64,000 nucleotides of DNA from Streptomyces sp. ALI-76-A (lineage in GTDB: Bacteria; Actinomycetota; Actinomycetes; Streptomycetales; Streptomycetaceae), in assembly GCF_030287445.1 (NCBI RefSeq), contig NZ_JASVWB010000002.1:6882001-6946000 (forward strand). The letters are read 5' to 3'. This document shows, in pieces, positions 24,033 through 48,187 of this stretch. How positions within the stretch are numbered: position 1 is the first letter of the stretch; each line of letters starts with the position of its first letter. Under the pieces are notes generated by a model. That model was not told where the DNA came from. It made no database searches and saw nothing but the letters and a program-made list of their open reading frames with translations. A program made the position numbers and the translations under genes.

Positions 24033-24080
24033 CAGCGGGCAACGCTGCGACGAGACTTGCTCGAACGAAGGGAGCGCGAC

Positions 24081-29230: not shown

Positions 29231-29429
29231 CGACCGCGAGGAGACGCATCCCATCCGGCCCCGGCTTCCACGGCCGGGGCCTCACCAGGCAAGATCAGCG
29301 GGGAAGTTGACGGCCCGGGGACCGGGGCCGGACGTACATACGGACCGGACATCCGGACGTGGCAGGCGTGTCAGACGTACCCCAGGTACCAGGCGTACCA
29401 GGAGACCGACGGAGAAGGGCGGGGCGGGC

Positions 29430-30343: not shown

Positions 30344-31048
30344 ATGAGCATCATGGCATCGCCCGAGATCAACGCGATGATCTTCATCCTCACCGGGGAA
30401 AAGCTGATCGACGCCGACGAGGACCTCGCCTACGACAGCCGCAAGCCCTACTCCGGCCTGGGCCGCAAGCTGGACAGGCTCTCCTCGCTGATCGACAAGT
30501 CGATCCACGACATCGCCGAGTCCATGCCGGACGACCTGGCCAAGTCGTACGCCGAGGCGATGGGCATGCTCATCGACGACGGCGGCAAGAACTACCTGCG
30601 CGAGTTCGCCGAGCAGCTCGACAAGATCGCCGAGGGCCGGCGCAAGACCTCCATGGACATCATGGAGTCCAAGTGGCAGGTCATCGCCGAGGTCATCCGG
30701 CTGCTCATCGAGATCGCCATCTACCTCGCGATGTCCTTCTTCACCGGCGGTGCCTCGGCCAGCCAGATCATGATGGCCAAGCTGCGCAGCCGGTTCATGA
30801 TCCTCACCATGCTCAGCCACCTGCTCCAGCGGCTGAACCTGGCGCCCGCGCTGAGCGAGGCGTTCGCCGAGGCGTTCACCACCTTCGCGGTGCGGCTGGC
30901 GATGATGAACTTCGCCCCGGACGGCCGCCGCCCGGACGGCTTCGACTGGAACGACATCCTTAAGTCCGCCGCGTTCGGCGCCGCGGCGGGCTTCCTCACC
31001 GGCGTCTTCGACGATCTCGCGAGGGGCATCGTCAAGAGCTACGACAAC
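30344..31048 (+). other. Giant protein: helical N-terminal export region
   Basis: Residues 1-235. Long amphipathic helices, a hydrophobic hairpin at about 115-140, and GFDWNDILKSAAFGAAAGFL near 205-225. This layout resembles the WXG100-like N-terminal domains of T7SS-exported toxins. There is no cleavable signal peptide. Confidence 0.6.
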
Positions 31049-34000
31049 AACTTCCTCAAGGACGGCCCGGACCTCGACTTCAAGCCTCACCCCAACCCGC
31101 GGCCCACTCCGAGCCCCGACGTCGGCAACAACACCCCGAACCCGAAGCCGAACCCCGCCCCGAACCCGGACGGCGACACCCTCCCGAACGACCGCCCGGA
31201 CCCCGGTCTTTACGGGAACGGCCCCAACCCCGGGAACAACACCCCGCTCACCTTCCGCGACACCCCGCTGTCCTTCCGGAACAACCCCGACCTGTGGCGG
31301 AACAACCAGCTGCTGCGGTACAACGCCGACCGGCCGGGCGCGCTGGCCGGGCACTACGGGCTCAAGGGGACCACCGACTTCCTCGCCGCCGGCTCCGGCG
31401 AGGCGCTCGCGGAGATCCTGATCAAGGGCGCCTTCGACGGCGACTGGTCCACCAGCTGGTCCACCTTCGTCGGCGCGGGCGTCAGCAGCCAGGTCGAGTC
31501 CACCCTCACCGACGTCGCCGTGAACACCGGCGCCGAACTGCGCCACGCCATCGACAAGCTGCGCGACCAGCCGCCCACCGTCTCCGCCGGGGACGGCGAC
31601 TCCGGCACGCGGGACCCCGCCGGCTCCTCGGGCTCCCGTGACGGCGACGGCCCCGCCCGCACCGACGGCTCCCCGGGTACGGACACCACGGGCGGTGACG
31701 GCCCCGCGCCCGCCTCGACGCCGCCCGTCTCCCGGCAGATCACCGGACAGGGTGATGTCACCGGCGGCCAGTCACCCGCGCCCTACACCGGCAGCGAGTC
31801 GCCCCCGGCCTACGCCGGTGGCGGCGAGATGCCCCCGGCCTACGTCGTGGAGGACCCACCGCCGTACTCACCGGGCCCGCTGCCGGTGACCGCCGCCGAG
31901 AACGCGCTGTGGCAGCAGGTCCACAACGGACCGGCCGAGGCCCGCGAGCAGGCGCTGCGCGACCTCGCCGCCCTGCGCGGCGCCCAGCCGCCCGCCGACG
32001 ATGAGATCGGCGTCCGCGACAGCCTGCACAGCAAGCTGTCGCAGCTGCCCGAGGTGCGGGTGGTGCCCGCCGGGAACGGCCCGGCCGCCCAGGTCGACAC
32101 CGACACGGTCCGCCGCGCCCTGGACGGCTTCGGCACGCCGGTCACGGTCGACATCCCGCTCTCGCTCAGCACCGGCCCGGGGGTTCCCGGCGACGGCTCC
32201 GCGAACCCGGCCGACCCTGTGGCCGGTTCCCTGCCTTCTTCTTCGCAGCACGAGGCCGTGGACTCCCCGGAGAGCGCCGTCGTCGGCTCGCGGGAGAACG
32301 AGGTCCAGAACTCTCCGGACGAGGTGGTCGGGCAGGACGAGCGTGCGGGTACGGTGCCGGATCAGGGTGTCGGCGGTGCGGTCGGCTCCCAGACACCGAG
32401 CACCTCCGGTACGTCCACCTCCGGTACGTCCGACTCCAGTACGCCCAGCTCCGGTACACCCACAGCCGGTACGCCCAACGCCTCGGCCACGCCGGGCGCG
32501 GGCAGCGGCAGCGGTGGCCGGCCGGGTGGTGTCCCCGCCGCCGGAGGCACCCCGGCTCCCTCCGGTACGCCGTCCCAGGGCACCCGTACCCCGGACGGCA
32601 CGTCCCCGGTGGACGGCCCAGGGATCACGACGGACGGCTCCCCGCAGCCCTCGCAGCCGTCCCCGGTGACGAACGCCTCCCCGGACGTCTCCGACGCACC
32701 TGCCGACAGCGGAACGTCGGACTCGGGACACAGCGCCCCCGTCCCGGCCGACGACATCGCCACCGCCCCGCCGAAGATCGGTACCACCGGCTCGTACGTC
32801 GACACCGCCACCGGAGCCGTACGGGAGGCCGACGGCATCGACGGCGTGGACGGCATCAGCGGTGGGAGCGAGGTGAAGGCCGGCGAGGTGAGGGCCGGCG
32901 ATGTGAAGGCAGGTCCCGCTCCGGCCGGGAACACCGCGCCCGGCCAGGCGCCGCCGCTGACGATCGTGGTCTCGGAGATGCCGCCGCCGGGCGAGGGGGC
33001 GCCGGAGGCGGCCGAACTGCTGGACGGGGCCGGGACCGACCGGGCCGTGGTGCTCGGGCCGCCGGTCGCGTCGGACGGGACGGGGCGCCCCGTACGCGCC
33101 GCCGTCGAGCTGACCCGCGACGGGCCGGGCGCCCCCGTCCGGGTCCGCCCGCTCGCCGATCCCTCGTCCGGTGTGTCGGCGGAGGGCATCCCGGCCACCG
33201 GCGACAGCGCCTTCCCCGGCGCGGACGTGCTGCTGCCACTGGCCGACGCCCTCGGCCCGGCTCCCGCCACGGCAGCCCCTGCGCCCCGCCCCGCGACCCA
33301 GAGTTCCGCGACCACCGACAGCGATCCGGTCACCGCGTCGGCCACGCGCCCGAAGGCGTTCACGGACCTGTCGACTTCCCTGAGCGGCAACGGTGTCGGC
33401 CTGAACCTCACGGAGGCCACCACTCCCGCCGCGGCCAAGCTCGCCACCCTGTCCCGCCCGTGGACGGAGACGGCCACCGACCTGTACCTGGAGTCGGGCA
33501 ACGGCAACGGAGCCGCCGGCGGGAACGGCAACGGAGTCGCTGACGGCAACGGAACCGGCGGGCACGTCCCGGGCCTCGGCGGCGGACGCGGGCCAGGCAA
33601 CGACGGCACTCCGCCCCCGCCCCCGCCTGCGCGCACCACGCCGGACAGCACCCCGGCGACATCCTCCGCGCCGCCACCGCCGCCGGGGCGGATCATCGTG
33701 CGGTCCGCGGACGGCCACCGCACCGCCGACGGGGGAAGCGGCCCCGCACGGCCCGGGGGCGGGCCGGTCGTCACCACCCTGGACGGCCACACGGTGCCCG
33801 TCGCGCAGCTGCGGCGCTGGGTGTCGGACGCGGCCGTGAAGGCCCGACCGGGGCACGCGGTGCAGAAGTTGACCATCTCCCAGAGCCCGGCCGAGGACGC
33901 CACGGCGCACAGCGCGGGCCGGCGCGCGCTGCTGGGCCAGGACACCTTCCGCGGCGTACGCACCACCTCCGCGTCCCCGGGCCCGGGGACCGCCACGGCG

Positions 34001-37000
34001 CCGGCGCCCGCCACCCGTACCGTCTTCACCGGCCCGCCGGCCCCGCTCCCCGGGTCCGGCAGCGAGCGGGGCGCCGAGTACAACGCGGCACACGGCACCG
34101 CCCGTACCGTCACGCTCGGCACCGACGACGTGGCGCGCCCCACCGTGACGATGAGCGGCGCGCAGTACGGCGAGGTGCTCAAGTCCTGGGCCGACGACGG
34201 CGATCAGGACCGGCCGCTGGTCCTCTTCTCCTGCGAGACCGGGCGGCAGCCGGAGGTGGCGGGCCTGCCGGTGGCGCAGCACGTGGCGAACCGGACCGGA
34301 CGGCCGGTGTACGCGCCGACCACCGAGGTCGGCACCGCCCGGGACCGGGACGGCAACGTCCGCGCCGTGCTGGCCGAAGGGACGGACGGGCCGGGCCGCT
34401 GGCGGCTCTTCACCCCGGAGCCCGCCGGTGCCGACCTGGACGGGCTGGCGCGTGACGCCGGGCTGCACGCGGGCCCGGAACCGGCCGACGCCTTCGCCCG
34501 GGCCCGTACCCTCCAGCAGATCCGCACCCTGCGTGACGCGCTCGGTCCGGACGCCGAACAGCGGCCGGAGAACCGGGAGTTGCTGGCCGGCCTCGCCTTC
34601 GTGGACGGCCTGCGCTGGCTCAGCCCCGACACCGCGGCCCGTTACGGCGACGGCCGGATGACCCCGGACCTGCTGCGCCGCATGGTCACCGACTGGCGAG
34701 CTGCGACGGGCGCCACCACACCCGATCCGGCGACCGGCCCCGCCCCGGCGGCCGATCCCACCCCCGAGCGGTACACCGCCTTCCTGCGCGCCGCGGCCGG
34801 ACTGCGCTCCACCGCCGGGCCCGACACCACACTCGACGCCCTGCTGCCCCCGCCGCCGCCCGCGCTCCCGCCGACCACCCCGGTCTCGCCGGAGGACGTG
34901 CGCGGTCTCACCTACGCGCCCTCCGCGCAGATCACCTGGTCGCTCTCCGACACCCCGCTGCCGCTGTCCGAGCTGGGCCTGAGCCCCGAGGACACCGCCG
35001 AACTCGCCCGCCGCAGGCCCGATCTGGCGCCCGCGTCGAGCCGCCCGGAGAGCCTCGCCGAGGACATGACCCTGCTCAGCAAGGCCACGCCCGGCACAGC
35101 GGACACCGTGCACGCGGACGGCCTGGCCTTCCGGCGGCTGGACACCCCCGGCGGCGGCAACTGCCTCTTCCGCTCGATCCTCGACAGCGCGCGCAGCCGG
35201 CCCGTACCGCCCGCGTGGGCCGCACGGAACGTCGCCGGGCTGCGCCGCCTGCTGCGCGACCGGATCACCGGCTCCGACCTGGGCGACGCGGTGTCCGTGG
35301 CGATCCCGGACCCGGTGTTCGCCGTGGTGGACGACCTGCGGATGCGCGCCGTCGCAGGGGTGCGGGACCCGGCCGAGCAGCGCCGGATCACCCGGCTCTG
35401 GAACCGGATCGCGCGGGATGTCGTCACCGACGGCGACGCCGGCGAGTGGCGGCGCATCCTCCGGGAGAGCGACTACCCGCATCTCGCCGACGTGGCGCCC
35501 ACCCCCGCCGACGCGTGGCGGCTCGGCGTCCGGGAGCTCGTCGCCTCGGCGGCCGAACTCCCCGAGCTGTGGGCCTCTCCCTTCGCCGACCAGCTCCCCG
35601 AGGCACTGGCGCACACGCTCGACCTCGATCTGCGGCTCGTCCAGCCCGACCCGCGCTCGCCGGGGGCCACCTTCGTCAACACCCTCCATCCGGGCGGCCA
35701 GGGCGGCACCCTGCACCTCGCCTACAACGGCGTCGACCACTACGACGCCCTGGTACCGGCGTCGGCCCCGCTGGTCCCCGTACCGGACCCGGTCGTCACG
35801 CAGGATCCGGTGGTCACAGAAGACCCGGTGATCACCCAGGACCCGGTCACCACCCCGGACCCGGACGGCTCCGGTCCGTTCGGCGAGTGGCTGCGCAGCA
35901 TGGGCGGGATCAGCGACCTCGACCGTCCCGACGCCGAGACCCCCGACCGGGGCGACCCGGTACCGCTGGAGACCCAGCTCGAACGGCACCGCCCGGCACG
36001 CCTGCTGACCGGCCCGGACGCACGGCCGCCGGGCCCGGCGCCGCGCACCGTCACCTTCGAGGACGGCAGCCGGCTGCCCACTGTCCTGATCAGCCCCGAC
36101 GCGGACCCGGGCGACGGCACCCCGGGCGCCCGGCCGGACGGGGCCACGCGGACCACCCCGACCGGGCTCTTCACCGGCCCCGGCGTCACCACCCTGCGCT
36201 CGCCCGAGCAGGTGGCCGAGGAGATCCTGGGCAAGCTGCCGAAGAACCTGCGCGCCCAGTTCGACGAGGCGGAGCTGCTGCGCCTGCTGACCGACCAGCC
36301 CGGCGCCTTCACCGCCCCGCGCGGCGCGCGCTTCGTGGGCCGGGAGAAGTCCGGGGTCGGCCACGAGATGACGGTCGAGGCCATCCCGTACCACCGCTGG
36401 GAGCGCTTCGCCGACGTGGACGGCGGCACCGTCCGGCTGGACACCATGCGACGGGGCCAGGCCGGTACGGCCGGCGGGCGCAGCGTCGGCTTCGGGCGCC
36501 GGATCGCCGGCGGAGTGAGCATGGGCCCGCCGCTCAACTGGCTGCTGAAGATCGGCGTTTCACTGGGCTGGACCCGCAGGACCGACTACGCCCAGGGCAC
36601 TCAGGCGTACCACCAGACCGAGTGGCGCGCCCACGAGGGCTCGCACCTGCACCTGGACGACGTCCACTACCGGGTACGGGTGGACCGCGTCACCGAGGCG
36701 CCGAAGACCACCGGCCCGGCCACCCCGTCCAGCCAGGGCACCACCCCGAACGTCCGGCCCAACGCGCCTGCTCCCGGGCCGCTTTGGCAGCGAAGCCAGG
36801 TGCACGTCGCGGAGTTCGCGATGCGCGACGGGCTGAGCTGGCGGCTGCCGGACGACCTCACCGTGCCCTTCACGGGACCCCGCCGGGCACCGAGGACGCT
36901 CACCTTCCCGGACGGGATCGAGCCACGCATCACCGACACCACCGGGCTGCACCTCACGGACCCGCCGGAGGACGTGGCGCTCGCCCTCTCCGGAGCACGT

Positions 37001-40000
37001 CCCGGCAGTTCGGCGCACCGCACCCTCGTCTCGTACGTCCGGCCGGGGCGGCTGCTCGCGCTGTTCGGCCGTTTCTCCGGGCCGGTCACCGGGCCCGAGC
37101 TGACCCGGGGCAGCGGACACCACCCGCTGGGACACCTGATCGTGGAGCGGTCGGTGCCGCACCGCGCCACCCTGGTCACCGAGTCGGTCAAGGCGGAGCT
37201 GCGCGACCTCACCCAGACCACCTATCAGAACGAGCGCGGCCACGTCCGGGACACCCGGCTGGGCGTCCAGGTCACCGCCGGGCCGAACCACACCCTCATC
37301 GGCCCGGAGACCGACGTACGCCTCCAGGGCGGCCCGCTGGTCCGCGCGGACCTCACCACCGGGCGTGGGCACTACCTCGGCACCGACGCGGCCCGGAAGA
37401 CCACCGGCCGCGTCCGCAACCACCCGGTCGCGCTCTACCGGGTGGAGCGCACCCTGATGGTGCGCAAGCCCGGCGAACCGCCGTCGGCCGCCCGCCCGGT
37501 CCGGGTGGTCAGTCTGGACTGGATCTCCACCCAGGACGCGCGCCGCCTCGCGGGCTGGGACAGCCGCACGCCCGGCCAGGCGGGCCCCGACCCGGACGTC
37601 GAGCCGCCGGTGCCGTGGTACCTCACCCGGGAGGACCCGGTCCACCTGAGCGGCCAGGTCCGCGCCGAGGGCTTCCGCCCCAACCCCACGCCGAACCAGG
37701 GGCAAGGGCAGACCCAAGGGCAGACCCAGCCCCAGCCCCAGCAGTCTCAGCCCCAGCAGTCTCAGACTCAGCACACCCGAACCCAGCAACCCGCGCCCCA
37801 GGACCCCCTGCGGGTCTTCGCGGACGCCGTCCTCGACACCCTGCACCGCTCGTACCCGTCGCTCTTCGTCCCGCCTCTCATGCTGCGGCACCCGCGGCTG
37901 GCCAAGCTCTGGTACGGCGACGGGCGGATGCGGACCGCGCTGCACAACGACCGTCAGGTGCGCGAGGCGCTGAACCGGCCCAGCCTGGCGCAGAGTCTGG
38001 ACGACCTGACCACCACCGGGGTGCCGGTCACCCTCACCGAGGACGGCAAGGTGCGCCGGGGGCACCACACCCTGATCCTCAGGGCGCGCCTGACCGACCG
38101 GCGGTTCGAGACCAGCATGAGCGAGCGCTCGCTGCGCAACGCGGTGATCGGTACCGAGGTGTCGGGCCAGGGCCAGCAGGCGTCCAGCAGCCTCTCCGGC
38201 GGTGTGGAGCTGGGCATCTCGCCGCGCGACCACGACAAGGTGCTCGAAGCCGGACTGCCGCGCCGGACCGGCAACGTGTCCCTCGGCGCCCGTTACGCCA
38301 AGACCGACCAGAAGGCCACCCGGAACACGGTCGCGGTCGCCCACGACCACCTGACGTACCAGAACGGCGCCGACCTGTACAGCTACCAGGTGGAGCTGGG
38401 CGCCACGTTCGAGGGCCACCGCCGCCCGCGCGGCTGGGCGCGGCTCGTCTCGGTCGGCCTGCTCGGCGCCGGCGTCTTCGTCAGCAAGGTCGAGGAACGG
38501 CCCCTGTTCACCCGGGGCAGCGAGACCGTGGGCCGGGTGGAGCTGGCCGTGCCCGCCGCGCACGGCTCCGACCGTCACGCCCCCGCCGACCCGCCGCCCG
38601 GTCAGCCGGCCTCCGAGCCCGCACCCGCCCCCGTACCGCGGCGGCTGTCCTCCGTCGAGGCGGACCAGCTCCTCGACGGCACCCGCCCGCGGCCGGAGGC
38701 GGACTCCGCCGACCGGCGGCTCGTCCGGAAGCTGCTGAGCGCCCCGCACGCGGTGCTCAGCACCGAGGGCGGCCGGCAGCGCCAGCGGCTCGTCCAGGAC
38801 ACCGCCGACCGCGCCTCGGGCACGTCCTGGCACGTCAGCGCGCCCGGCGCCCCGGTGCGCACCGCGCTGCGCCGGGCGATGGCGAACCTCAGCGTGGCCG
38901 GTCAACTCGGCCAGTACCTGGGTCCGTTCGGCTCCCGCGTCACCGGACTCCACGGCGCCGGACCGCTCCAGACCCACTATCTGAAAGCCGCCGTCCGCGG
39001 TGAACTGCACCGCGTACGGGTCACGAGCGCCCCGAAACCGGCCAGCTTCGAGGCCACGATCGGCAACGAGCACCGCGTCGTCGGCAGCGCGAACGCGGTC
39101 TCCCACACCACCCTCGGCCTACAGGGCTCCTACATGCCGCTGCAACAGGCCCCGGGCGAACAGGCGGTGACCGGTAGCTACACGACCGCCCTCCAGTACG
39201 CCTGGGGCAAGGGCCGCAGTGTCTCGCAGACCCTCACCCGGGGACGCAACACCACCCTCACCTTCGCCGGGCGGATGTACCTGGTGGTCGCCGACGCCGC
39301 CGAGACCGTCGCGGTGCGGGACCGCTGGACGGCCGCGATGGGCACGGTGGGCACCCGCGCCGGCGACCGGATCAGTGCCGCGGCCGGCCGGATCTCCGGG
39401 CGCCTGGCCCGTGGTCTCGCCCCGCGCCGGGCCGCCGCCGCGCTCCAGGGCATCCGCGACGCGGTGATGTTCCACCTGCCGATGCAGGACGTCATCGAGG
39501 CCGGACTCGCCCCGGACGGCCTGGGCACCGACACCCCGCACAACCTCGGCGGCGGCTACCGGGTGCCCGCCTTCCTGCGCCGCCGCCGGTTCCCCACCCA
39601 CCCCAGCGGCCAGCTCGACGCGAGCCAGGCGGCGCGGCAGCTGATGGGGCGGCTGGAGAAGATCGGGGTGCCCTCGCACGACCGGGAGCAGGTCCTCCAG
39701 CGGCTCTCCCCGGACTTCCTCCGCGCCCATCTGCACGAACTGACCACCGACGGGATGACCCTGCCCGTCCGCCACCGCTCCTGGACCAGCCCGCACCACC
39801 TGCCGGTCGGCGGCAGCCCCGGCCTGCTCCACTTCAAGCTGACCCCGGTCACCACCACCGTGGAGAGGCTGCGCACCGGCTTCGAGCTGGAGGACTACCG
39901 CACCATCGCCCGCGACGACGCGGACAGCACCTCCCAGGACCGTGGCGCGGACGTGACGCTCAGCGCCGGCCAGCGCGCCGCGAGCAGCGGCATCTTCGTC

Positions 40001-43000
40001 GCCAACCCCTCGCTCCAGGGCACCGCGGCCAAGCAGCGGTCGAGCGTCCGCACCGAGACCACCGGCAGCACCGCGATGCCGAACATCGCCACCACCCAGG
40101 CGCACGCGGAGATCGTCACCAGCTACGTACTGACCGTCTCGATGACGGACGCGACCGGTGCCCCCCTCGCCCCCCGCGCCTTCGCCCCGGTCGGCAGCCT
40201 CAACGAAATCCTCCCGGTCAGCCTGCTCACCCCGGCCGGCGACGGCGCGGACGGCGCGCTCACCGAGCAGGACGTGCCGGAACCCGAGCGCGCGGTGACG
40301 ATGCTGACCGCCGAGCAGGCCACCCCCGAGGGCATCGCCGCCTGGCGCACCGCGGCCACCGGCACCGGGAGCACCGGCAGTTCCGACGGCGCCGACTCTG
40401 ACGTCCTCCCCTTCGACGACCGGATCGGCTCCGGCATCCTCGCCGTGGACATCCGCGGCGCGGCCAACGTGCAGGACGCCCTCACCCTCGCCACCGCCCG
40501 CGCGGACGGCCTCGGCGACAGCGACCTCGGCAGCCGGCACACCGGCACGAGCCTCACCGAACGCGTCCGCATGGCACGCCTCACCCCGCTCACCGGCCTC
40601 GGCACCGCCCCCGCCCAGGCCCAGCAGGAGGCCACCGCCCAGGGCGGGCTGACCGCCGGCTTCCGCGAGGCGCTCAGCGCGAACGGCTCGCCGCTGCCCA
40701 CCCAGTCCTCCGCCCGTCTCCTCGGCCAGTCCCACACCGCCGACTCCCGTCTCTACGCGCGGATGCACCGCGGCGGCGCCCGGCTGCTCACCGTGGAGAA
40801 CAAGCCGCGTATGGAGGCCATGCAGCGCCGGAAGACCTCCGACGCGGTGGAGGCCGGCATCGCCGACAACATCGAGGGCGCGGTGGGCACCGCCCCGCTG
40901 GCCGGCAACAGCAACGCGGGCGTGACCAACCCGGGCGCCACGGTGCCGATCGGCGGCGCGAACGACGGCACCGCCCTCAAGGGTGCCGTGGACACCACCC
41001 TCGGCACCCACCTGAAGGTCGTGACCGACCGCAGCATGCTCTTCGCGCTGCCGGTGAGCTGGCTGTCGGTGGCCGAGGTGGACCACCGGATCACCGACAG
41101 CCGCCCGTTGCACGCGCTCGGCAAGGCGAAGCGCGGCCCGCGCGCCGCCGAAGCCCAGACCACCGCCCTGGTCTGGCTGCGCGAGGACATCGCCCGCGAC
41201 TACGGCCTCCTCGACGACACCACCTTCCCCGACGAGGTCCGCACCGCCTGGGACGACATGGCCAAGGCCCAGGGCGACCTCACCGAGGCCGAGAAGCGCT
41301 ACTACGACGCCCGGGCGCGGGCCCGCGAGACCTGGCTGGACCTGACCACGGAGGAGCAGGACGCGCTGGGCGCCGACAACTCCGGCCCGCCCACCGATCT
41401 GCCGCCGGACATCGTCTGGTCCCCGGCCGTCGTCGCCTGGCAGGCCGCCCGCGAGGAGGTCCACCGGTGGGAACGGCACACCGACGCCGCAGCCCGGGAC
41501 CACCACCGGCTGCACCTCGCCGCCACCCGCCTCACCGCCCACCACCTGGGGTCGGCCTCGGTGCCGGTGGCGGACCTGCCGCAGGAGTACGCCCCGCCGG
41601 AATGGCGCTCCGAGGCGCCCGAGCCGTACACGGTCACCGACGCCAGCGACGCCACCCCGCGCACCGTCACCTCGCCGGACGGCGCCACCGTGCGCGAGGT
41701 GCACGACGTGCCGCACGACGGCGCCTCGTTCTTCCACGCGCTGCTGGCCGCCGCCCAGGACCGGGGCCGGCTGCCCCAGCTGCTCGGCGGCGACCTCGGC
41801 GCCCGGTTCGCGGCCGACCCAGGCGACCCGTCGGTCACCGCCGAGGCCATCGGCGCCGCCCGCGACCGTCTTGCCTGGGCGCTGGGCGAGGACGGCAACG
41901 AGGACCTGCTCGACGCCCTCGCCCTGGACGCCGCCGACACCTTCACGCCGGAGGAACTCCGTGCCGCCGGAATCCGGTTGACCCCCGCTCAGCAGGCCGA
42001 GTTCGACGCCTTCGGCCGCCTTCCGCAGACTCTCTGGCCGACCGCGGACCAACGGGTGGCCCTGGCCACCGTGGCCCTGTCCCGCCCGTTCGCGAGCGAG
42101 CCGCGCCAGGACGGCACGGGCGACGCGGGTGCTACGGGGGCTACGGGCGACATGGGGGACATGGGGGACGGGGACGGCGAACCCGCCCCGCCCGAGCGCC
42201 GCGCGGGCGACCACGGCGGCGCCGACCTGCTGCCCGCGCTGGCCGCCCGCGTCCTGGGCACGCCGCTCACCGTGGTCACCGCCGAGGGCCGCGAGCAGCT
42301 CTTCCTCCCGCACGGCACCGACCCGTCCGCCGTCCGCCCGGCCACCGACCCGGTTCTCTTCGCCGCGGGGGGCTTCTTCCACGCAGCCCTCCCGCCCGGC
42401 ACCCCGCCCCCGGTCGCCACCCCGCTGCCGGCCCCGACGGCCGCGGCCGCGGCCGCCGGTACCTCGGGGGCGGGTACGTCCGGAACGGGTACGTCGGGAA
42501 CGGATGCTTCTGGAACGGATGCTTCTGGAACAGGTGCCTCTGGAACGGGTGCCTCTGGAACGGGTGCCTCTGGCAGGGATACGTCGGCCCCGGGTACGTC
42601 CCAGGCGGACCCCTCACGCCCCGCGGCCGGGCAGCAGTCCGCGAAGCCGCCCGCGCACCGCAGCCACCCGACCCCGCCCTGGATGCCGCCGGCCGACAGC
42701 ACCGCCCCCCGCTACCGCCTCGACCGGAACGGCGTCCTCACCGCACCCGACGGTGCCACCTACACCCAGGGCACTCCCGCCGGCCGGGGCAACGGCTTCT
42801 TCGACGCGCTGTCCGCGGTCCTGCGCCAGGCCGCCCAGCACCCCGGCCTGGACCGCCGCGAGGCGGCGCGGCTGCGCGCCCGCGCGGGAGCGTCGCCCGC
42901 CCAGCTGATGCGCCTCAACGGCCTCCCCGGCGACCCGGCCGAGCGCGACTCCCTCTTCCGGCCCCCGCCCATGACCCGCCGCCCCGGCGTACCCGCGCCG

Positions 43001-46000
43001 AGTACGGACGCCCGTGAGGGCCATCTGCGCCGCCATCTCACCGAGGCCCCCTGGGGCCCCGAGGCCGACCGCGCGATGGCCGAGTGGGCGGCCGGTGCCA
43101 CCGGCACCACCGTCACCCTGATCGAGGAGAACGGCACCGCCCACACCTATCCGGGTCCCGCCGCCGAAGGCACCCCGCACCTCCGGCTCCGCCGCCGCGG
43201 CGGCGACTTCGTCCCGCTGACGCTCCGCACCCCGGCACCCGCGCCGAAGACGCCGAAGGCGGACATCACGGGGAAGAAGGGGCCGGAGCAGGAGAAGCAG
43301 GGACCGGAGAAGCAGGGACCGGAGAAGCAGGGACCGGAGCAGGCGACCCCGGCTCCCAAGGGCACCGAGCCGAAGGACTCCTCGGAGGGACAGGTCGAGC
43401 CTCTCGTCGACGTCGACGTCCATGTCCAGGTCGATCCGCCGGTCCCGCCGGTCCCGCCCGTGCCGCTCCAGGACCTCCAGGGCCCGTCCGCCGTTCCGTC
43501 GCCCCCGTCTCCCGGGTCCCCGACGGGCAGCGACGCCCCGGGCCTCGCGGACGAGGAGGAGGCGTACGAGCTGAGCACCCTGTCCGGAGTCGGAGCCGGA
43601 GCCGGAGCCGGAGCCGCGATGGCCATGGACATGGACGCGGACGGGGGCACGGACACGGACTCCGACGTCGAGATGGACCTCGACTCCGGCTCCGACGTCG
43701 GCCCCGACTCCCGCCCGGCGCCCGAGGAAGCGGCCGTACGAACCGGCCCGGAGAACGAGTTCGCCGCCGAGTTCGCCGACCTGTTCGGCGAGTCGGAACT
43801 GCGGGTGGACGCGCTCCTCGACGTGCTGCGCCGGCGCAACGAACTCCTCGGCGGATTCCCGGACGTGGCGTTCGACGGCGCCTTCACCGAGCAGGTCGGC
43901 ATCGGTGTGCCCGAGGCCCTTGACCAGGCGGAGCAGGAAGGCCGGCTCCAGCCGGAGGAGTACGAGGAACTGCGTGAGGCCCTGGGTCTCGGCAGCGGCG
44001 GTCCGTTCACGCAGACGCGTCCCACCGGCACCTCGGAACGGGACCGCGAGGTGACCCTGCGGATGCTGGACCGGGTGGCCCGACTAGTGAAGGAAGCCCT
44101 CCGGAAGGAGGACCGCTGGGCGAACGCGCAGGTCACTCCGCACATCGCAGTCGGACTGCTGCCGGACGGTTCCCTCGGCATCGCGGGCAACACCGGCGCG
44201 AAGGCGCTCACCAGCGACGAGGCCGCCCTGGTGGAGGAGGAGCTGAGGTGGTTCGTCACCGGTCAGGATCCGGAAGAAGGGCCGGGGCAGCGGAAGCTGG
44301 AGCAGTGGAGCCGGGAGGAGGAGCAGCACCGGCAGCGGTCGGCGGACCTGGCGGAGCGACAGCGGGACCTCGACCGGCGGAGGGAGGAGCAGGCGCGGCT
44401 GCGGGCTCAGCTGGAGGAGCGGTACGAGTCGAATTCCTGGAACGACCAGCTCGAGCAGCAGTGGAACGTCCTGCTCGGCGACGAGGAGACAGCCGGGCAG
44501 GACCAGTGGCGTCTGGCGGACGAACAGCAGCGGTGGCTACGGGACGAGCAGTGGCTGGCACGCCGGCGGCCCGGGATCGCGCGGGAGACCCGGGACCGCA
44601 CCAAGCTGCGGGCCCTGGCCACCGGCTGGTACCGGCTCTACCACCCGGAATCCCCCGAACTCGACCTGATCAGGCAGGCGTTGGCCAACCCGAGGATCCT
44701 CAACGTCAGCGGCCAGGACGGGACCCCGGGGGCCGGATCGCACGGCTCCGAGCACGGGGAGCTCACCCTCCTCGGACACTGGGTCGACCACTGGGAGAAC
44801 CATCCCGGCACCCCGGACGACCCCCAGGTGCTCCGCCTGGGCGGGTTCAAGATGGCCTGCGCCTCCTGTGATCTCGCCTACCAGGCGGTCAACGAACACA
44901 TCGGGAGCAGGCTCGGCCACCGGGTGCAGGCGTCCGGTACCCACGGCATGTTCTTCCCCGGATGGCGCATGCCGCAGTGGATGGCGCGACGGCCGGGGCT
45001 GCTGAACCACATCCGCGACAACGCGGAGAGCATCGGCGCGTACCTGGACCACAACGGCGTGCTCCAGGGCGACAGGACCGAGAGCGACAACCCGCAGTAC
45101 CCCGCCACGTCCTCCTCCGAGTACGAGTCCGGTGACGAAGAGCTGGACCCGGACGCCTCCGTCGGCTCCCCGGCGCCGGACCCGGGAACGGTGGCGCCCC
45201 GGCTGCCGCGGACCCCTTCCGGGACGCGGCCCGGCCCACCGGAGGCACAGGTCACCCGGCCCGTCCTGAAGGGCCCGCGCGACGGTCGGCCTCGTTTCGT
45301 GGTGCGTTCGGGTTTTGACGCGCGTCGGTTCTGGTTCGGGGGTGAGCAGGTCACCGATCTGACGGTGCGGCTCGCGCTGCGGGGCCCGGAGGGGGAGGTT
45401 GCGCGTGTGCGTGATCAACTTGAGGCGGGTGTGCGGGAGTTCCTGAATGATCCGGCGTACCGTCTGCCCAATGGTGACCGGCTTCATGTGACGGTCGAGC
45501 ATGTCGGTTCCGCTGAGGCTCCGCATCTGGCGGTGGAGGTCGCGGGCCGGGACCGGGTGATGGATCAGGGCACTTGGTGGGCGGATGCCGATCCGGTGCA
45601 GCTGGTGCATGAACTGACGCATCAGCTGGGTCTGCGTGATGAGTACCGGGACGCGGATTCCGCGCACCGCCCGCACGTCGCCGGCAGTCTGCTGGGTGAT
45701 CCGAAGGTCAGCCCTGATGACGCTTCGCTCGCCGCCGCGGGTCTTCGTGGCCGGCACATGGACCTGTTGGGTGTGCTGATCGGTGACGTGGCTCCGGGGA
45801 CTTCGGGGCAGTCTCAGGAGGACGCCGAGCGGGACTGGGACACGGCGCGGAAGGCTGCTACCGGGATCCCGCGTCAAGCGGTGTGGGTGGACCCGGTCTC
45901 CCTGCCCCAGCCGGCCGACACCACCGACAGCACTACCGAGACCACCGACAACGCCACCACCGCGACCGCCGAAGTCGCGCCCCGCGTGCCGGGTGACCCG

Positions 46001-46864
46001 GATCCGAACGCCGCGCCCCCCGCCCCCGAGCCGACGTTCATCCCCTTCAAGTCGGGCACCTTCGAGTTCACCAACGTGAAGCACACGGAGGAGAAGTACC
46101 GCGACAAGGCGGTCCGGATCATCGAGTTGCTGCGGAAGCACGACACCATCCGGGACTACATCGGCGGCCGTCCGTGCCGTATCACCCTGCGCCTGCGGAC
46201 GACGGAGACTCCGGCCAACGTGACGGACCGGGGCGAGGCGGGGGTCGACATCGAGCTGGCGAGCTACTACTTCGAGAAGTACGGCATCGGCCACATCATG
46301 GGGATGCTCGCCCACGAGATCGGGCTGCACCCGCTCGCCTCCCGGAACGGGGGGATCCCGGACGAGGAGGAGATGTTCCGTGACATCCCGCTGCCGGTTC
46401 CGGGGCTGTCCGACCTGAAGACCCCGCGCACCATGAGCACCGAGGGCGCGGGCCAGGCGGATCACATCATGGCCGCCTTCCCCAGCAGCACACGGCACCG
46501 GATCTACCGCGACATCGTTGTGGACATGGCCAAGGTGCTCGCTCGGGACGCGCGGACCGGGGAGGAAGGGGCGAGGCCCGGGGACGTCACGGACCTGGTC
46601 GACTGCTACCTGATGGACCTCGCCTCCATCGCGATCACCAACGACTACCGGATGAACGCGGCCAGGGAACCCGGCAACACCGCCAAGGTCTACAACGCCT
46701 ACAAGGAGATGCTCCAGGCCCAGTTCGCGGACGACACCTCTCTCCGGGCCCTTCTGCCGTCGAACAAGAGCATGTTCGGTGTGATCAACGACTTCCGGCG
46801 GATCGGCACGTACATCGGGATCAGCAACCGCGGCGACAGCATCCAGCAGGCCGACGCGACCTGA
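30344..46864 (+). CDS. Giant multidomain T7SS-linked protein, candidate polymorphic toxin (5506 aa)
   Basis: One uninterrupted frame encodes 5506 residues. Residues 1-235 are helical with a hydrophobic IYLAMSFFTGGA segment and no Sec signal, like other T7SS toxin N-termini. N/P-rich linkers and low-complexity Thr/Ser/Gly/Pro segments fill 240-1090. A candidate clan CD-like domain has His1250 and Cys1297. It probably corresponds to the family known as 'lonely Cys'. An OTU-like domain has Cys1607 and His1799. A beta-rich body (about 1985-3600) contains several related strand-rich modules. Two OTU-like copies lack the Cys (Ser3795, Gly4151). A deaminase-like domain has His4804, Glu4806, Cys4839 and Cys4842. 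A zincin cassette (His5089, Glu5090, His5093) and an HExxxH domain (His5324, Glu5325, His5329) end the protein. I counted six cysteines in total. The ATG follows GAGGA at nine bases. It is the last gene of the T7SS substrate operon. I infer an exported mosaic effector; the target is unknown. Confidence 0.85.
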   Translation: MSIMASPEINAMIFILTGEKLIDADEDLAYDSRKPYSGLGRKLDRLSSLIDKSIHDIAESMPDDLAKSYAEAMGMLIDDGGKNYLREFAEQLDKIAEGRRKTSMDIMESKWQVIAEVIRLLIEIAIYLAMSFFTGGASASQIMMAKLRSRFMILTMLSHLLQRLNLAPALSEAFAEAFTTFAVRLAMMNFAPDGRRPDGFDWNDILKSAAFGAAAGFLTGVFDDLARGIVKSYDNNFLKDGPDLDFKPHPNPRPTPSPDVGNNTPNPKPNPAPNPDGDTLPNDRPDPGLYGNGPNPGNNTPLTFRDTPLSFRNNPDLWRNNQLLRYNADRPGALAGHYGLKGTTDFLAAGSGEALAEILIKGAFDGDWSTSWSTFVGAGVSSQVESTLTDVAVNTGAELRHAIDKLRDQPPTVSAGDGDSGTRDPAGSSGSRDGDGPARTDGSPGTDTTGGDGPAPASTPPVSRQITGQGDVTGGQSPAPYTGSESPPAYAGGGEMPPAYVVEDPPPYSPGPLPVTAAENALWQQVHNGPAEAREQALRDLAALRGAQPPADDEIGVRDSLHSKLSQLPEVRVVPAGNGPAAQVDTDTVRRALDGFGTPVTVDIPLSLSTGPGVPGDGSANPADPVAGSLPSSSQHEAVDSPESAVVGSRENEVQNSPDEVVGQDERAGTVPDQGVGGAVGSQTPSTSGTSTSGTSDSSTPSSGTPTAGTPNASATPGAGSGSGGRPGGVPAAGGTPAPSGTPSQGTRTPDGTSPVDGPGITTDGSPQPSQPSPVTNASPDVSDAPADSGTSDSGHSAPVPADDIATAPPKIGTTGSYVDTATGAVREADGIDGVDGISGGSEVKAGEVRAGDVKAGPAPAGNTAPGQAPPLTIVVSEMPPPGEGAPEAAELLDGAGTDRAVVLGPPVASDGTGRPVRAAVELTRDGPGAPVRVRPLADPSSGVSAEGIPATGDSAFPGADVLLPLADALGPAPATAAPAPRPATQSSATTDSDPVTASATRPKAFTDLSTSLSGNGVGLNLTEATTPAAAKLATLSRPWTETATDLYLESGNGNGAAGGNGNGVADGNGTGGHVPGLGGGRGPGNDGTPPPPPPARTTPDSTPATSSAPPPPPGRIIVRSADGHRTADGGSGPARPGGGPVVTTLDGHTVPVAQLRRWVSDAAVKARPGHAVQKLTISQSPAEDATAHSAGRRALLGQDTFRGVRTTSASPGPGTATAPAPATRTVFTGPPAPLPGSGSERGAEYNAAHGTARTVTLGTDDVARPTVTMSGAQYGEVLKSWADDGDQDRPLVLFSCETGRQPEVAGLPVAQHVANRTGRPVYAPTTEVGTARDRDGNVRAVLAEGTDGPGRWRLFTPEPAGADLDGLARDAGLHAGPEPADAFARARTLQQIRTLRDALGPDAEQRPENRELLAGLAFVDGLRWLSPDTAARYGDGRMTPDLLRRMVTDWRAATGATTPDPATGPAPAADPTPERYTAFLRAAAGLRSTAGPDTTLDALLPPPPPALPPTTPVSPEDVRGLTYAPSAQITWSLSDTPLPLSELGLSPEDTAELARRRPDLAPASSRPESLAEDMTLLSKATPGTADTVHADGLAFRRLDTPGGGNCLFRSILDSARSRPVPPAWAARNVAGLRRLLRDRITGSDLGDAVSVAIPDPVFAVVDDLRMRAVAGVRDPAEQRRITRLWNRIARDVVTDGDAGEWRRILRESDYPHLADVAPTPADAWRLGVRELVASAAELPELWASPFADQLPEALAHTLDLDLRLVQPDPRSPGATFVNTLHPGGQGGTLHLAYNGVDHYDALVPASAPLVPVPDPVVTQDPVVTEDPVITQDPVTTPDPDGSGPFGEWLRSMGGISDLDRPDAETPDRGDPVPLETQLERHRPARLLTGPDARPPGPAPRTVTFEDGSRLPTVLISPDADPGDGTPGARPDGATRTTPTGLFTGPGVTTLRSPEQVAEEILGKLPKNLRAQFDEAELLRLLTDQPGAFTAPRGARFVGREKSGVGHEMTVEAIPYHRWERFADVDGGTVRLDTMRRGQAGTAGGRSVGFGRRIAGGVSMGPPLNWLLKIGVSLGWTRRTDYAQGTQAYHQTEWRAHEGSHLHLDDVHYRVRVDRVTEAPKTTGPATPSSQGTTPNVRPNAPAPGPLWQRSQVHVAEFAMRDGLSWRLPDDLTVPFTGPRRAPRTLTFPDGIEPRITDTTGLHLTDPPEDVALALSGARPGSSAHRTLVSYVRPGRLLALFGRFSGPVTGPELTRGSGHHPLGHLIVERSVPHRATLVTESVKAELRDLTQTTYQNERGHVRDTRLGVQVTAGPNHTLIGPETDVRLQGGPLVRADLTTGRGHYLGTDAARKTTGRVRNHPVALYRVERTLMVRKPGEPPSAARPVRVVSLDWISTQDARRLAGWDSRTPGQAGPDPDVEPPVPWYLTREDPVHLSGQVRAEGFRPNPTPNQGQGQTQGQTQPQPQQSQPQQSQTQHTRTQQPAPQDPLRVFADAVLDTLHRSYPSLFVPPLMLRHPRLAKLWYGDGRMRTALHNDRQVREALNRPSLAQSLDDLTTTGVPVTLTEDGKVRRGHHTLILRARLTDRRFETSMSERSLRNAVIGTEVSGQGQQASSSLSGGVELGISPRDHDKVLEAGLPRRTGNVSLGARYAKTDQKATRNTVAVAHDHLTYQNGADLYSYQVELGATFEGHRRPRGWARLVSVGLLGAGVFVSKVEERPLFTRGSETVGRVELAVPAAHGSDRHAPADPPPGQPASEPAPAPVPRRLSSVEADQLLDGTRPRPEADSADRRLVRKLLSAPHAVLSTEGGRQRQRLVQDTADRASGTSWHVSAPGAPVRTALRRAMANLSVAGQLGQYLGPFGSRVTGLHGAGPLQTHYLKAAVRGELHRVRVTSAPKPASFEATIGNEHRVVGSANAVSHTTLGLQGSYMPLQQAPGEQAVTGSYTTALQYAWGKGRSVSQTLTRGRNTTLTFAGRMYLVVADAAETVAVRDRWTAAMGTVGTRAGDRISAAAGRISGRLARGLAPRRAAAALQGIRDAVMFHLPMQDVIEAGLAPDGLGTDTPHNLGGGYRVPAFLRRRRFPTHPSGQLDASQAARQLMGRLEKIGVPSHDREQVLQRLSPDFLRAHLHELTTDGMTLPVRHRSWTSPHHLPVGGSPGLLHFKLTPVTTTVERLRTGFELEDYRTIARDDADSTSQDRGADVTLSAGQRAASSGIFVANPSLQGTAAKQRSSVRTETTGSTAMPNIATTQAHAEIVTSYVLTVSMTDATGAPLAPRAFAPVGSLNEILPVSLLTPAGDGADGALTEQDVPEPERAVTMLTAEQATPEGIAAWRTAATGTGSTGSSDGADSDVLPFDDRIGSGILAVDIRGAANVQDALTLATARADGLGDSDLGSRHTGTSLTERVRMARLTPLTGLGTAPAQAQQEATAQGGLTAGFREALSANGSPLPTQSSARLLGQSHTADSRLYARMHRGGARLLTVENKPRMEAMQRRKTSDAVEAGIADNIEGAVGTAPLAGNSNAGVTNPGATVPIGGANDGTALKGAVDTTLGTHLKVVTDRSMLFALPVSWLSVAEVDHRITDSRPLHALGKAKRGPRAAEAQTTALVWLREDIARDYGLLDDTTFPDEVRTAWDDMAKAQGDLTEAEKRYYDARARARETWLDLTTEEQDALGADNSGPPTDLPPDIVWSPAVVAWQAAREEVHRWERHTDAAARDHHRLHLAATRLTAHHLGSASVPVADLPQEYAPPEWRSEAPEPYTVTDASDATPRTVTSPDGATVREVHDVPHDGASFFHALLAAAQDRGRLPQLLGGDLGARFAADPGDPSVTAEAIGAARDRLAWALGEDGNEDLLDALALDAADTFTPEELRAAGIRLTPAQQAEFDAFGRLPQTLWPTADQRVALATVALSRPFASEPRQDGTGDAGATGATGDMGDMGDGDGEPAPPERRAGDHGGADLLPALAARVLGTPLTVVTAEGREQLFLPHGTDPSAVRPATDPVLFAAGGFFHAALPPGTPPPVATPLPAPTAAAAAAGTSGAGTSGTGTSGTDASGTDASGTGASGTGASGTGASGRDTSAPGTSQADPSRPAAGQQSAKPPAHRSHPTPPWMPPADSTAPRYRLDRNGVLTAPDGATYTQGTPAGRGNGFFDALSAVLRQAAQHPGLDRREAARLRARAGASPAQLMRLNGLPGDPAERDSLFRPPPMTRRPGVPAPSTDAREGHLRRHLTEAPWGPEADRAMAEWAAGATGTTVTLIEENGTAHTYPGPAAEGTPHLRLRRRGGDFVPLTLRTPAPAPKTPKADITGKKGPEQEKQGPEKQGPEKQGPEQATPAPKGTEPKDSSEGQVEPLVDVDVHVQVDPPVPPVPPVPLQDLQGPSAVPSPPSPGSPTGSDAPGLADEEEAYELSTLSGVGAGAGAGAAMAMDMDADGGTDTDSDVEMDLDSGSDVGPDSRPAPEEAAVRTGPENEFAAEFADLFGESELRVDALLDVLRRRNELLGGFPDVAFDGAFTEQVGIGVPEALDQAEQEGRLQPEEYEELREALGLGSGGPFTQTRPTGTSERDREVTLRMLDRVARLVKEALRKEDRWANAQVTPHIAVGLLPDGSLGIAGNTGAKALTSDEAALVEEELRWFVTGQDPEEGPGQRKLEQWSREEEQHRQRSADLAERQRDLDRRREEQARLRAQLEERYESNSWNDQLEQQWNVLLGDEETAGQDQWRLADEQQRWLRDEQWLARRRPGIARETRDRTKLRALATGWYRLYHPESPELDLIRQALANPRILNVSGQDGTPGAGSHGSEHGELTLLGHWVDHWENHPGTPDDPQVLRLGGFKMACASCDLAYQAVNEHIGSRLGHRVQASGTHGMFFPGWRMPQWMARRPGLLNHIRDNAESIGAYLDHNGVLQGDRTESDNPQYPATSSSEYESGDEELDPDASVGSPAPDPGTVAPRLPRTPSGTRPGPPEAQVTRPVLKGPRDGRPRFVVRSGFDARRFWFGGEQVTDLTVRLALRGPEGEVARVRDQLEAGVREFLNDPAYRLPNGDRLHVTVEHVGSAEAPHLAVEVAGRDRVMDQGTWWADADPVQLVHELTHQLGLRDEYRDADSAHRPHVAGSLLGDPKVSPDDASLAAAGLRGRHMDLLGVLIGDVAPGTSGQSQEDAERDWDTARKAATGIPRQAVWVDPVSLPQPADTTDSTTETTDNATTATAEVAPRVPGDPDPNAAPPAPEPTFIPFKSGTFEFTNVKHTEEKYRDKAVRIIELLRKHDTIRDYIGGRPCRITLRLRTTETPANVTDRGEAGVDIELASYYFEKYGIGHIMGMLAHEIGLHPLASRNGGIPDEEEMFRDIPLPVPGLSDLKTPRTMSTEGAGQADHIMAAFPSSTRHRIYRDIVVDMAKVLARDARTGEEGARPGDVTDLVDCYLMDLASIAITNDYRMNAAREPGNTAKVYNAYKEMLQAQFADDTSLRALLPSNKSMFGVINDFRRIGTYIGISNRGDSIQQADAT
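33641..34333 (+). other. Giant protein: candidate clan CD-like cysteine peptidase region
   Basis: Residues about 1100-1330. NAAHGTARTV supplies His1250-Gly and LVLFSCETGRQ supplies Cys1297. The 47-residue His-Cys spacing and the hydrophobic strand before Cys are those of caspase-like and C80 (toxin autoprocessing) peptidases. Likely autoprocessing if active. Confidence 0.45.
35096..35788 (+). other. Giant protein: OTU-like cysteine peptidase domain
   Basis: Residues about 1585-1815. TPGGGNCLFRSILDSA places Cys1607 in an OTU Cys box (GDGNCLFRA in known members). DHYDALVP places His1799 in the C-terminal His box. The spacing of about 190 residues is within the OTU range. OTU enzymes remove ubiquitin in eukaryotes and occur in some bacterial effectors. 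Confidence 0.6.
36296..41143 (+). other. Giant protein: beta-rich body
   Basis: Residues about 1985-3600. Several strand-rich segments recur with a similar plan (for example GVSLGWTRRTDY, VSLGARYAKTDQK, VTLSAGQRAASSG), each followed by long beta-hairpins and a helix-rich spacer. No known enzyme motif was seen. A Gln/Pro-rich linker lies at about 37694-37800. Confidence 0.5.
41666..42403 (+). other. Giant protein: degenerate OTU-like copy with Ser for Cys
   Basis: Residues about 3775-4020. VPHDGASFFHALLAAA aligns with the OTU Cys box, but Ser3795 replaces Cys. GGFFHAALPPG gives a matching His4013. The order and spacing mirror the first OTU-like domain. Confidence 0.45.
42482..42586 (+). repeat. 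Seven 15-bp in-frame tandem repeats
   Basis: Units of the type GGAACGGGTGCCTCT encode GT[GD]xS pentapeptides in a linker between two OTU-like copies of the giant protein. Copy number is likely to vary between strains. Confidence 0.85.
42731..43228 (+). other. Giant protein: degenerate OTU-like copy with Gly for Cys
   Basis: Residues about 4130-4295. TPAGRGNGFFDALSAVL matches the Cys box with Gly4151 at the catalytic position. The C-terminal box reads GDFVPLTLR and has no His. Presumably inactive. Confidence 0.4.
44111..45043 (+). other. Giant protein: deaminase-like domain with coiled-coil insertion
   Basis: Residues about 4590-4900. HIAVGLLPDGSLGIAGNTG resembles the opening beta-hairpin of toxin deaminases. 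EHGELTLLGHW gives HxE (His4804, Glu4806) and MACASCDLAYQAV gives CxxC (Cys4839, Cys4842), the zinc and catalytic set of the deaminase superfamily. A Glu/Arg/Gln-rich coiled coil of about 90 residues interrupts the region between hairpin and HxE. Confidence 0.6.
45284..45890 (+). other. Giant protein: zincin cassette with foreign codon usage
   Basis: Residues about 4981-5183. LVHELTHQLGLRDEYRD has the HExxH zinc motif (His5089, Glu5090, His5093). Roughly a quarter of codons here end in A or T (many CGT, GGT, GAT, CAT), against very few in the flanks. This suggests the module was exchanged by recombination. Confidence 0.7.
46028..46864 (+). other. Giant protein: C-terminal HExxxH domain
   Basis: Residues about 5229-5506. 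MGMLAHEIGLHPLAS carries HExxxH (His5324, Glu5325, His5329) within a helical domain. TMSTEGAGQADHIMAAFP and DLVDCYLMDLASIAI follow. It is at the position where polymorphic toxins carry their toxic module. Family not recognised. Confidence 0.5.
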
Positions 46865-46965
46865 GGCCACCCGGAACGGCCACCCTGTCGCCGAGGGCTG
46901 TGCCCTTTCATGCCGACGCGAGTTGCGGACCGCCCCTGTCCGCAACCGTCGCTACCGTGCTCAGC

Positions 46966-48102: not shown

Positions 48103-48187
48103 CCGCCACCTGCCATCGGCCCCCGCCGCGCCCTGGCCCGCGCGCCCCCTCCCGCGCCCGAACCCGTGCGACCCCTACGGCCTGCGG

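Follow-up and report, generated by a model that had tools for sequence, protein, structure and literature searches.

A giant type VII secretion-linked protein of Streptomyces with conserved peptidase-like modules, exchanged enzyme cargo and a predicted beta-rich body

The 64,000-nucleotide stretch of Streptomyces sp. ALI-76-A considered here (contig NZ_JASVWB010000002.1, positions 6,882,001 to 6,946,000; hereafter the window, in whose own numbering positions are given) belongs to a genome of 9.69 Mb in 5 contigs and holds a gene of 16.5 kb at the end of a type VII secretion system (T7SS) operon. To judge from its sequence, the encoded protein of 5506 amino acids (the giant) probably leaves the cell through the T7SS, processes itself and carries several enzymes, and it may have a pore of its own. 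Clan CD-like and OTU-like cysteine peptidase modules precede a long beta-rich body, and one deaminase-like and two metallopeptidase-like modules (ZN1 and ZN2) follow it (Table 1).

The gene is a single open frame on the plus strand (30344–46864) with an ATG start and its sole stop at the terminus, and its GC contents of 0.73, 0.56 and 0.92 at codon positions 1, 2 and 3 resemble those of coding DNA. Homologues fall into 107 clusters, several of them marked partial, just the 1026 candidates sharing most words having been scored; per 100-residue block, residues 1201–4000 are covered in 91–100 of the 107, with a median identity of 70–74%. Because the frame is kept over most of its length in these homologues, it is a true gene rather than a chance frame. 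The named sources of homologues and loci are nearly all Streptomyces. An earlier note, made from the letters of this DNA, had described one unbroken 5506-codon frame that closes a T7SS substrate operon; the single stop, the homologue coverage and the Ecc and WXG100 genes upstream bear this out at its exact coordinates.

Genes for EccB, EccC, EccD and WXG100 proteins are all present at the locus. For comparison we used 67 loci from other genomes, 52 of which include the start region of the giant, and counted each partner where enough upstream DNA was available. Upstream of the giant we found genes for the small WPG-motif protein (g29891; 48/50 loci), the YbaB-like protein (48/50), the AAWKG protein (43/46), lone7_assoc_B (40/43), WXG100 (37/40), the WNG protein (33/37) and EccB (9/9), and the gene order of the operon was conserved in all 46 loci that hold at least four of eight markers. 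When 150 Streptomyces genomes were drawn evenly, a piece of the constant part, or chassis, of the giant (residues 2160–2440) was present in 35, or in 33 without the two weakest matches. A high-scoring EccB subtype, with a limit of at least 288 bits that was chosen by eye (the next lower score being 283), occurred in 32 of 33 chassis genomes versus 16 of the 117 others. EccB lay no more than 20 kb upstream of the chassis at 26 of 34 places, the weakest two of the 36 (G046, E = 2.7e-5; G139, E = 2.1e-4) being left out of this count. Across 296 genomes of the class the piece was found in 5, all of the same genus as the window. The giant operon is also found on complete linear plasmids, and a third, circular plasmid carries the giant with its upstream side outside the view. 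On large plasmids more generally, 15 Streptomyces records match the beta body, with 71% identity once and less than 60% otherwise.

The N-terminus of the giant is of the WXG100 substrate type, with a WXG100_2 domain that scores over its family cut-off, and the WPG-motif protein encoded directly upstream is a possible export partner. The T7SS link claimed in the earlier note is upheld by this domain, by the operon order and by the nearness of EccB. Several observations weigh against export by this route. Eight of the 34 chassis places lack EccB within 20 kb (six have none on the contig, one has it 59 kb off and one 3.2 Mb off). EccE was not found at the locus, the one EccE match of the genome belonging to another T7SS locus; second ESX copies lacking eccE are reported for Streptomyces in the accessible part of PMC8401907. 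There is no YxxxD/E motif in residues 1–420 of the giant or in the small proteins encoded upstream, and no WxG in residues 1–300. Since no YxxxD/E motif was found, the export claim leans on gene linkage and on the WXG100_2 domain. As a separate observation, a WXG100_2 match over the cut-off occurs in 102 of the 150 Streptomyces genomes, and such matches lie inside frames of up to 18430 codons (for example G023:C1:2222612-2222971).

The best evidence of an independent kind for the deaminase and both cysteine peptidases is the use of cysteine. The giant holds 6 cysteines against 52.5 expected from 20 other frames of the window (at least 200 amino acids each, called by a codon-composition script). 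Four of the six, C1297, C1607, C4839 and C4842, are predicted nucleophiles and zinc ligands, and the remaining two, 5278 and 5421, both fall within ZN2. Columns with cysteine in at least 5 of 14 aligned rows, counted where the window has a residue and with few of the rows holding the deaminase, are solely 1297 (14 rows), 1607 (12) and 5421 (8). Each of the three assignments concerned (clan CD-like, OTU-like, deaminase-like) is weak on its own.

The clan CD-like module carries the His-Gly and Cys dyad expected of its clan: H1250-G1251 and C1297 are present in 14/14 aligned giants, and the His and Cys are invariant in a second set of 21. DUF4347, which we take to be a clan CD family, matches 19 of the 21 members (best E = 6.2e-5; 21 bits for the window copy, cut-off 24.6), and residues ~1184–1498 match lonely_Cys (NF012197; E = 1.7e-33, 116.1 bits) below its curated cut-off of 200 bits. 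In the adjoining module the OTU cysteine motif and C-terminal histidine are represented by C1607 (12/14 and 20/21) and H1799 (14/14 and 21/21). Peptidase_C65 matches the region in 4 of 21 members, with a best E of just 0.32, and when a profile of the clan CD and OTU modules was compared with the PDB, three of the four rows up to E = 1 were OTU chains (E = 0.35–0.55), two of them viral polymerase chains that are presumably OTU domains. These conserved dyads would suit self-processing peptidases. Two stretches beyond the beta body may be further OTU copies that have lost their cysteine: residues 3770–4025 (E = 0.011–0.017, probability 3–4%), where 13 of 14 giants have serine in place of the cysteine, and residues 4125–4300 (E = 0.010–0.011, probability 4%). 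Telling against the enzyme assignments, the domain calls fall below the Pfam or NCBIfam cut-offs, the PDB sequence matches are insignificant, and the top PDB row of the joint profile (E = 0.14) is no OTU. PDB sequence searches gave no match for residues 1–1500 or for alignment A3; A4 drew a single chance-like row (troponin), and A6 drew two.

At the C-terminus, OTT_1508_deam matches all eight members that hold the deaminase-like region (best E = 1e-4; window copy 20.8 bits, cut-off 27), which carries HGE and CASC (4839–4842) motifs of the HxE/CxxC type. Among full copies at other loci, ZN1 reads HExxH in 50/50, and ZN2 reads HExxxH in 51/51 and HExxH in none. The earlier note had proposed at least three active-site signatures in the chain, and all are present as motifs (H1250/C1297, C1607/H1799, CASC, HELTH and HEIGLH); its clan CD-like, OTU-like and deaminase-like labels fit the conserved residues, the OTT_1508-like motif and the scarcity of cysteine. 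Its zincin label suits the HExxH motif of ZN1; the last module is no classical HExxH zincin, because every one of the 51 copies of ZN2 reads HExxxH. The note had also suggested fold prediction as a check, and no peptidase, deaminase or zincin fold emerged from it with confidence at the C-terminus: the model of residues 4470–5506 is poor (pLDDT 65.3, pTM 0.37), which counts against the payload assignments. Within it ZN2 is well defined (pLDDT ~90), unlike the flank of the ZN1 motif and the greater part of the deaminase core, with model positions 630–662 next to the ZN1 motif below 50. In a Foldseek search with this model the three top rows were human MATCAP chains (E = 0.07–0.08, probability at most 0.33), and anthrax lethal factor stood at row 6 (E = 0.85). 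The VIA table for the same model was set aside as uninformative on metallopeptidases, consisting mostly of coiled-coil matches to 156–309 and some helical ones to 1–79. The available part of PMC10499314 describes the MATCAP/TMCP tubulin carboxypeptidases as HExxxH enzymes, a motif they share with ZN2. The fold match of ZN2 to them is weak, there is no sequence match and its third metal ligand is putative, so that the modelled likeness is a lead and not a claim of membership.

The earlier note also ascribed polymorphic-toxin features to the giant, and a constant chassis with exchanged C-terminal toxin domains is what the homologues display. Among the 107, the deaminase was counted in 18, ZN1 in 42 and ZN2 in 41; because some homologues are partial, these cargo counts are lower bounds. 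The tails form arrays, such as DEAM-ZN1-ZN2-(ZN1-ZN2)n, and on the chassis tree the tail type changes 16 times (minimum 4); 72 of the 98 rows have a tail label, the other 26 having a tail that is missing or shorter than 450 amino acids, and 'other' serves as a leftover class. Over 162 sequences, a set made up of the 107 homologues and of frames from the 67 loci, in which some proteins occur twice, clean insertions of at least 200 amino acids occur solely at residues 975–1146 (slot 1, 12 sequences) and 1557–1569 (slot 2, 28 sequences). An insertion counted as clean if no more than 130 residues of the query were lacking there, which places the C-terminal cargo site outside this count. In slot 1, P0021 carries a full GT4-conflict glycosyltransferase at 975–1042 (PF20706, E = 4.9e-86), and P0049 has a similar insertion. 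Slot 2 sits precisely between the clan CD-like module and its OTU-like neighbour; five of the six insert sizes given there are 497–504 amino acids and one is 268, and the ~500-residue insert of P0062 matches part of Anthrax_toxA (E = 7.5e-8, over 55 residues). Pre-computed families add PF03497 in 24 of the 107 homologues, PF22596 in 7 (some sources label its carriers as scabin-related ADP-ribosyltransferase) and a glycosyltransferase in 2, and a distant relative on a Streptomyces atratus plasmid has an EndoU domain at its own residues 1460–1614.

Two points speak against free exchange at fixed sites. Slot-2 insertion changes just twice on the chassis tree, so that its 28 carriers represent few events and the insert is inherited rather than frequently exchanged, and P0096 has an insertion of ~152 amino acids at 3735–3749, below the 200-residue limit. 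The tails of two relatives, L031 (4565 amino acids) and L030 (3320), hold no Pfam family over its cut-off. Concerted evolution of the ZN copies was considered and is not dominant, since 10 of 50 ZN2 and 14 of 33 ZN1 copies have their best match within their own locus. An occurrence of ZN2 outside the giant in other genera was likewise considered and rejected: ZN2 was found in 2 of the 296 genomes of the class, both of the window's genus. The ZN1 module also appears in the N-terminal half of the distant relatives L062 and L068 (~residues 820–1000 of their frames), and can therefore occupy different places; in L040 and L045 the ZN1/ZN2 arrays are broken across several frames, by assembly error or decay.

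These features can be placed in a tentative order of events. Gene linkage suggests that the WXG100-like N-terminus and the small WXG-type partners encoded upstream would bring the chain to the EccB/C/D machine. Outside the cell, the clan CD-like (C1297) and OTU-like (C1607) modules, with their conserved catalytic residues, may cut the chain or its targets. The hairpins of the beta body could then form a membrane-spanning barrel or an adhesive stalk by which the payload reaches the target cytosol, where the one deaminase-like and two metallopeptidase-like modules would act. As their sequences show, relatives swap or multiply this C-terminal payload, and some hold additional enzymes at the two fixed internal slots.

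The pore is the boldest element of this scheme. An AlphaFold model of residues 1930–3090 consists of helical modules with four very long beta-hairpins that resemble transmembrane beta-barrels, and up to residue 3660 the sequence perhaps supplies two more. It is quite possible, going by this model, that the body of 1930–3660 is a pore. More doubtful is the fuller arrangement of a single chain with its own translocation pore, in which each module would give one long hairpin to one barrel, with the peptidases ahead, the enzymes behind or in the two slots, and export by the co-travelling T7SS subtype; if true, it would amount to an all-in-one device with which a Gram-positive bacterium injects its payload. 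A stalk, an adhesin or a protective shell, with the target reached through uptake or contact, is likewise quite possible, and long beta-rich chassis are a feature of stalked polymorphic toxins. Evidence against a pore comes from Foldseek, in which no match to the beta-body model reached E = 1e-3, and from amphipathic alternation, which is higher at hairpin tips than in other strand windows (2.11 vs 1.44) and still does not single them out: 11 of the 14 strongest windows lie away from the tips. We rejected alternation as proof of membrane strands for that reason. Sequence-level internal repeats were rejected too, a seven-segment profile comparison having returned just the shared ends of overlaps and one weak match (2485–2790 with 3085–3330; E = 0.006, probability 6%, 36 columns).

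For the target of the payload we lean towards eukaryotic soil organisms, because of the OTU, ADP-ribosyltransferase and Anthrax_toxA cargo, and because no downstream gene is common to all loci with the same cargo. Lack of immunity genes was used by Zhang et al. (PMC3482391, in the part available) as a sign of eukaryotic targets. In 28 of the 67 loci the DNA extends at least 900 bases past the frame taken as the giant; the largest cluster of downstream genes takes in 5 of these 28, and the three genes that follow the giant in the window (46900–49924) were found in none of the 67, just 28 of which extend those 900 bases or more. The downstream AlkZ gene was dismissed as an immunity candidate on the same count (0/67, with just 28 reaching at least 900 bases). 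The competing view, that the giant is a T7SS polymorphic toxin directed at competing bacteria, its immunity being encoded at another place in the genome, provided by compartment or supplied by a cargo-specific neighbour that was missed, we regard as rather unlikely. It has in its favour that descriptions of bacterial conflict systems include T7SS and deaminase cargo (PMC3482391, in part) and that the EndoU of the S. atratus plasmid relative would suit a bacterial target too. It also draws on the five sequences examined that have the full deaminase cargo (the window, L006, L024, L027 and L043): their first downstream genes differ, and L006, L043 and L027 share 450–530 bp downstream of the giant at 82–89% DNA identity, a possible cargo-specific neighbour. 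This stretch was not found in L024 or the window despite the same cargo modules, and its 421-codon frame in L006 is broken in L043.

It is unlikely that the long hairpins are an artefact of a low-diversity alignment. Just 29 sequences entered it, the mean pLDDT of the five models varies from 56.0 to 76.8 and the turns of two hairpins fall below 50, all of which detracts from the predicted body; against an artefact, the alignment extends to ~30% identity, pTM is 0.74, and in the best model (pLDDT 76.8) the strands are mostly above 80 away from the turns. Least probable is a surface or developmental Streptomyces protein with relic enzyme-like modules: for Streptomyces scabies the T7SS is reported to act on development rather than on virulence (a title cited in PMC8401907) and many modules are under their family cut-offs, but the catalytic residues are retained although nearly all other cysteines are lost, HExxH and HExxxH are kept in all 50 and 51 copies, the chassis is confined to 35 of the 150 Streptomyces genomes and the payloads change repeatedly.

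Table 1. Features of the window discussed in the text (residues are those of the giant)
Feature	Position	Strand	Basis
EccC, FtsK/SpoIIIE-type T7SS ATPase	15881..20290	-	Pfam FtsK_SpoIIIE, E 4.5e-88
EccD	20151..21752	+	Pfam EccD, E 4.3e-74; YukD, E 8.9e-24
EccB, high-scoring subtype	21912..23519	+	Pfam T7SS_ESX1_EccB, E 2.8e-102
Small WNG-motif WXG100-like protein, start probably ATG 24081	24057..24416	+	Sequence; Pfam WXG100 just E 0.021
WXG100 protein	24508..24816	+	Pfam E 3.2e-10; TIGR03930, 45.6 vs 44.85 bits
T7SS-associated lone7_assoc_B protein	24957..25427	+	NCBIfam NF033533, 147.1 bits vs cut-off 35
AAWKG family protein	25568..29230	+	NF038047, 210.7 bits vs cut-off 70
YbaB/EbfC-like protein, true start probably downstream of frame start	28827..29888	+	Pfam YbaB_DNA_bd, E 3.6e-10, domain ~29466-29729
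Small WPG-motif protein directly upstream of giant	29891..30262	+	Sequence; no Pfam/NCBIfam match
Giant T7SS-linked protein, 5506 aa	30344..46864	+	Frame, composition, homologues
WXG100_2 domain, residues 24-149	30413..30790	+	PF25547, 33.6 bits vs Pfam cut-off 27
Cargo slot 1, residues 975-1146	33266..33781	+	Insertions of at least 200 aa, 12 sequences
Clan CD-like (DUF4347/lonely_Cys-related) region, residues 1120-1365	33701..34438	+	Dyad H1250/C1297
Cargo slot 2, residues 1557-1569	35012..35050	+	Insertion, 28 sequences
OTU-like cysteine peptidase, residues 1585-1815	35096..35788	+	C1607, D1798, H1799
Beta-rich body, residues 1930-3660	36131..41323	+	Fold prediction, conservation
Possible degenerate OTU copy, residues 3770-4025	41651..42418	+	Very weak profile match
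Possible second degenerate OTU copy, residues 4125-4300	42716..43243	+	Very weak profile match
Deaminase-like payload, residues 4470-4900	43751..45043	+	HGE, CASC 4839-4842; OTT_1508_deam match
Metallopeptidase-like payload ZN1, residues 4975-5180	45266..45883	+	HELTHQLGLRDEY; HELTH (HExxH)
Metallopeptidase-like payload ZN2, residues 5231-5506	46034..46861	+	HEIGLH (HExxxH); weak MATCAP fold match

Some neighbouring and distant genes deserve mention. Upstream of the T7SS genes the window encodes a protein (11213–14527) that combines a right-handed beta-helix and AAA and AAA_lid_6 modules and that we take to be EccA-like, and near the locus lies a ricin-type lectin gene (9632–11065); on the S. 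atratus plasmid another ricin-type lectin gene (L076:27058-28092) stands directly downstream of the EndoU-bearing giant. Three further loci, from two Mycobacterium records and one Kitasatospora record, have open frames that each run to an end of the locus and so span no fewer than 5659, 4764 and 5020 codons (L067:2-16978, L069:2-14293 and L070:5336-20395), carry the OTU-type motif YNGxDHYDA and are accompanied by T7SS genes (EccC/EccD, or EccB).

To our knowledge, few Streptomyces T7SS effectors are known, and in the titles and opening lines of abstracts that were searched none was described. Since T7SS gene order, EccB subtype and giant cargo go together, the purpose of this T7SS could be addressed through eccC or the gene of the giant itself. 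The earlier note held the combination of modules to be undescribed, a claim that does not survive comparison with the literature. According to the available part of Zhang et al. (2012, PMC3482391), giant actinobacterial proteins combine lethal factor-like metallopeptidases with caspase-like, OTU, ADP-ribosyltransferase and MCF1-SHE domains, and OTU domains occur in WXG-type T7SS toxins of actinobacteria, so that the general kind of protein to which the giant belongs is already known. SACTE_5178 (13652 amino acids), for example, joins caspase-like, OTU and metallopeptidase domains and other toxin domains in one Streptomyces chain, a combination to which the predicted modules of the giant correspond. 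For those proteins the available part gives no fixed cargo slots, tandem HExxH/HExxxH arrays, linked EccB subtype or barrel-like body. Among the matches listed in our search of titles and abstract openings, no slots, HExxxH arrays or barrel were described for such giants; the fixed cargo slots and the predicted built-in membrane barrel look new. A chassis that takes enzymes at fixed slots would help to explain how giant multi-toxin proteins evolve.

The term 'lonely Cys' was not found in the literature searched, and the earlier note was right that such proteins are known by annotation: NCBIfam holds both lonely_Cys (NF012197) and the T7SS-associated lone7_assoc_B (NF033533), the giant matching the former, at 116 bits against a cut-off of 200, and the operon gene at 24957–25427 the latter. 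Perforin/MACPF proteins and autotransporters form membrane barrels from long beta-hairpins such as those predicted for the body of the giant. No sequence relation to them was found and the fold match is moderate, and in the giant successive modules of one chain would build the barrel, which, if true, would be an unusual route to a toxin pore. The Streptomyces host is Gram-positive and has no mycomembrane. CpnT of Mycobacterium tuberculosis, in the accessible parts of PMC8593097 and PMC7810871, is a toxin exported by a T7SS, has small WXG100 genes in its operon and bears an enzyme at its C-terminus, features that the giant shares or is predicted to share; CpnT carries one payload enzyme and its membrane passage, in a diderm, involves the EsxE-EsxF pore, whereas several payloads and internal peptidases are predicted for the giant and its host is Gram-positive.
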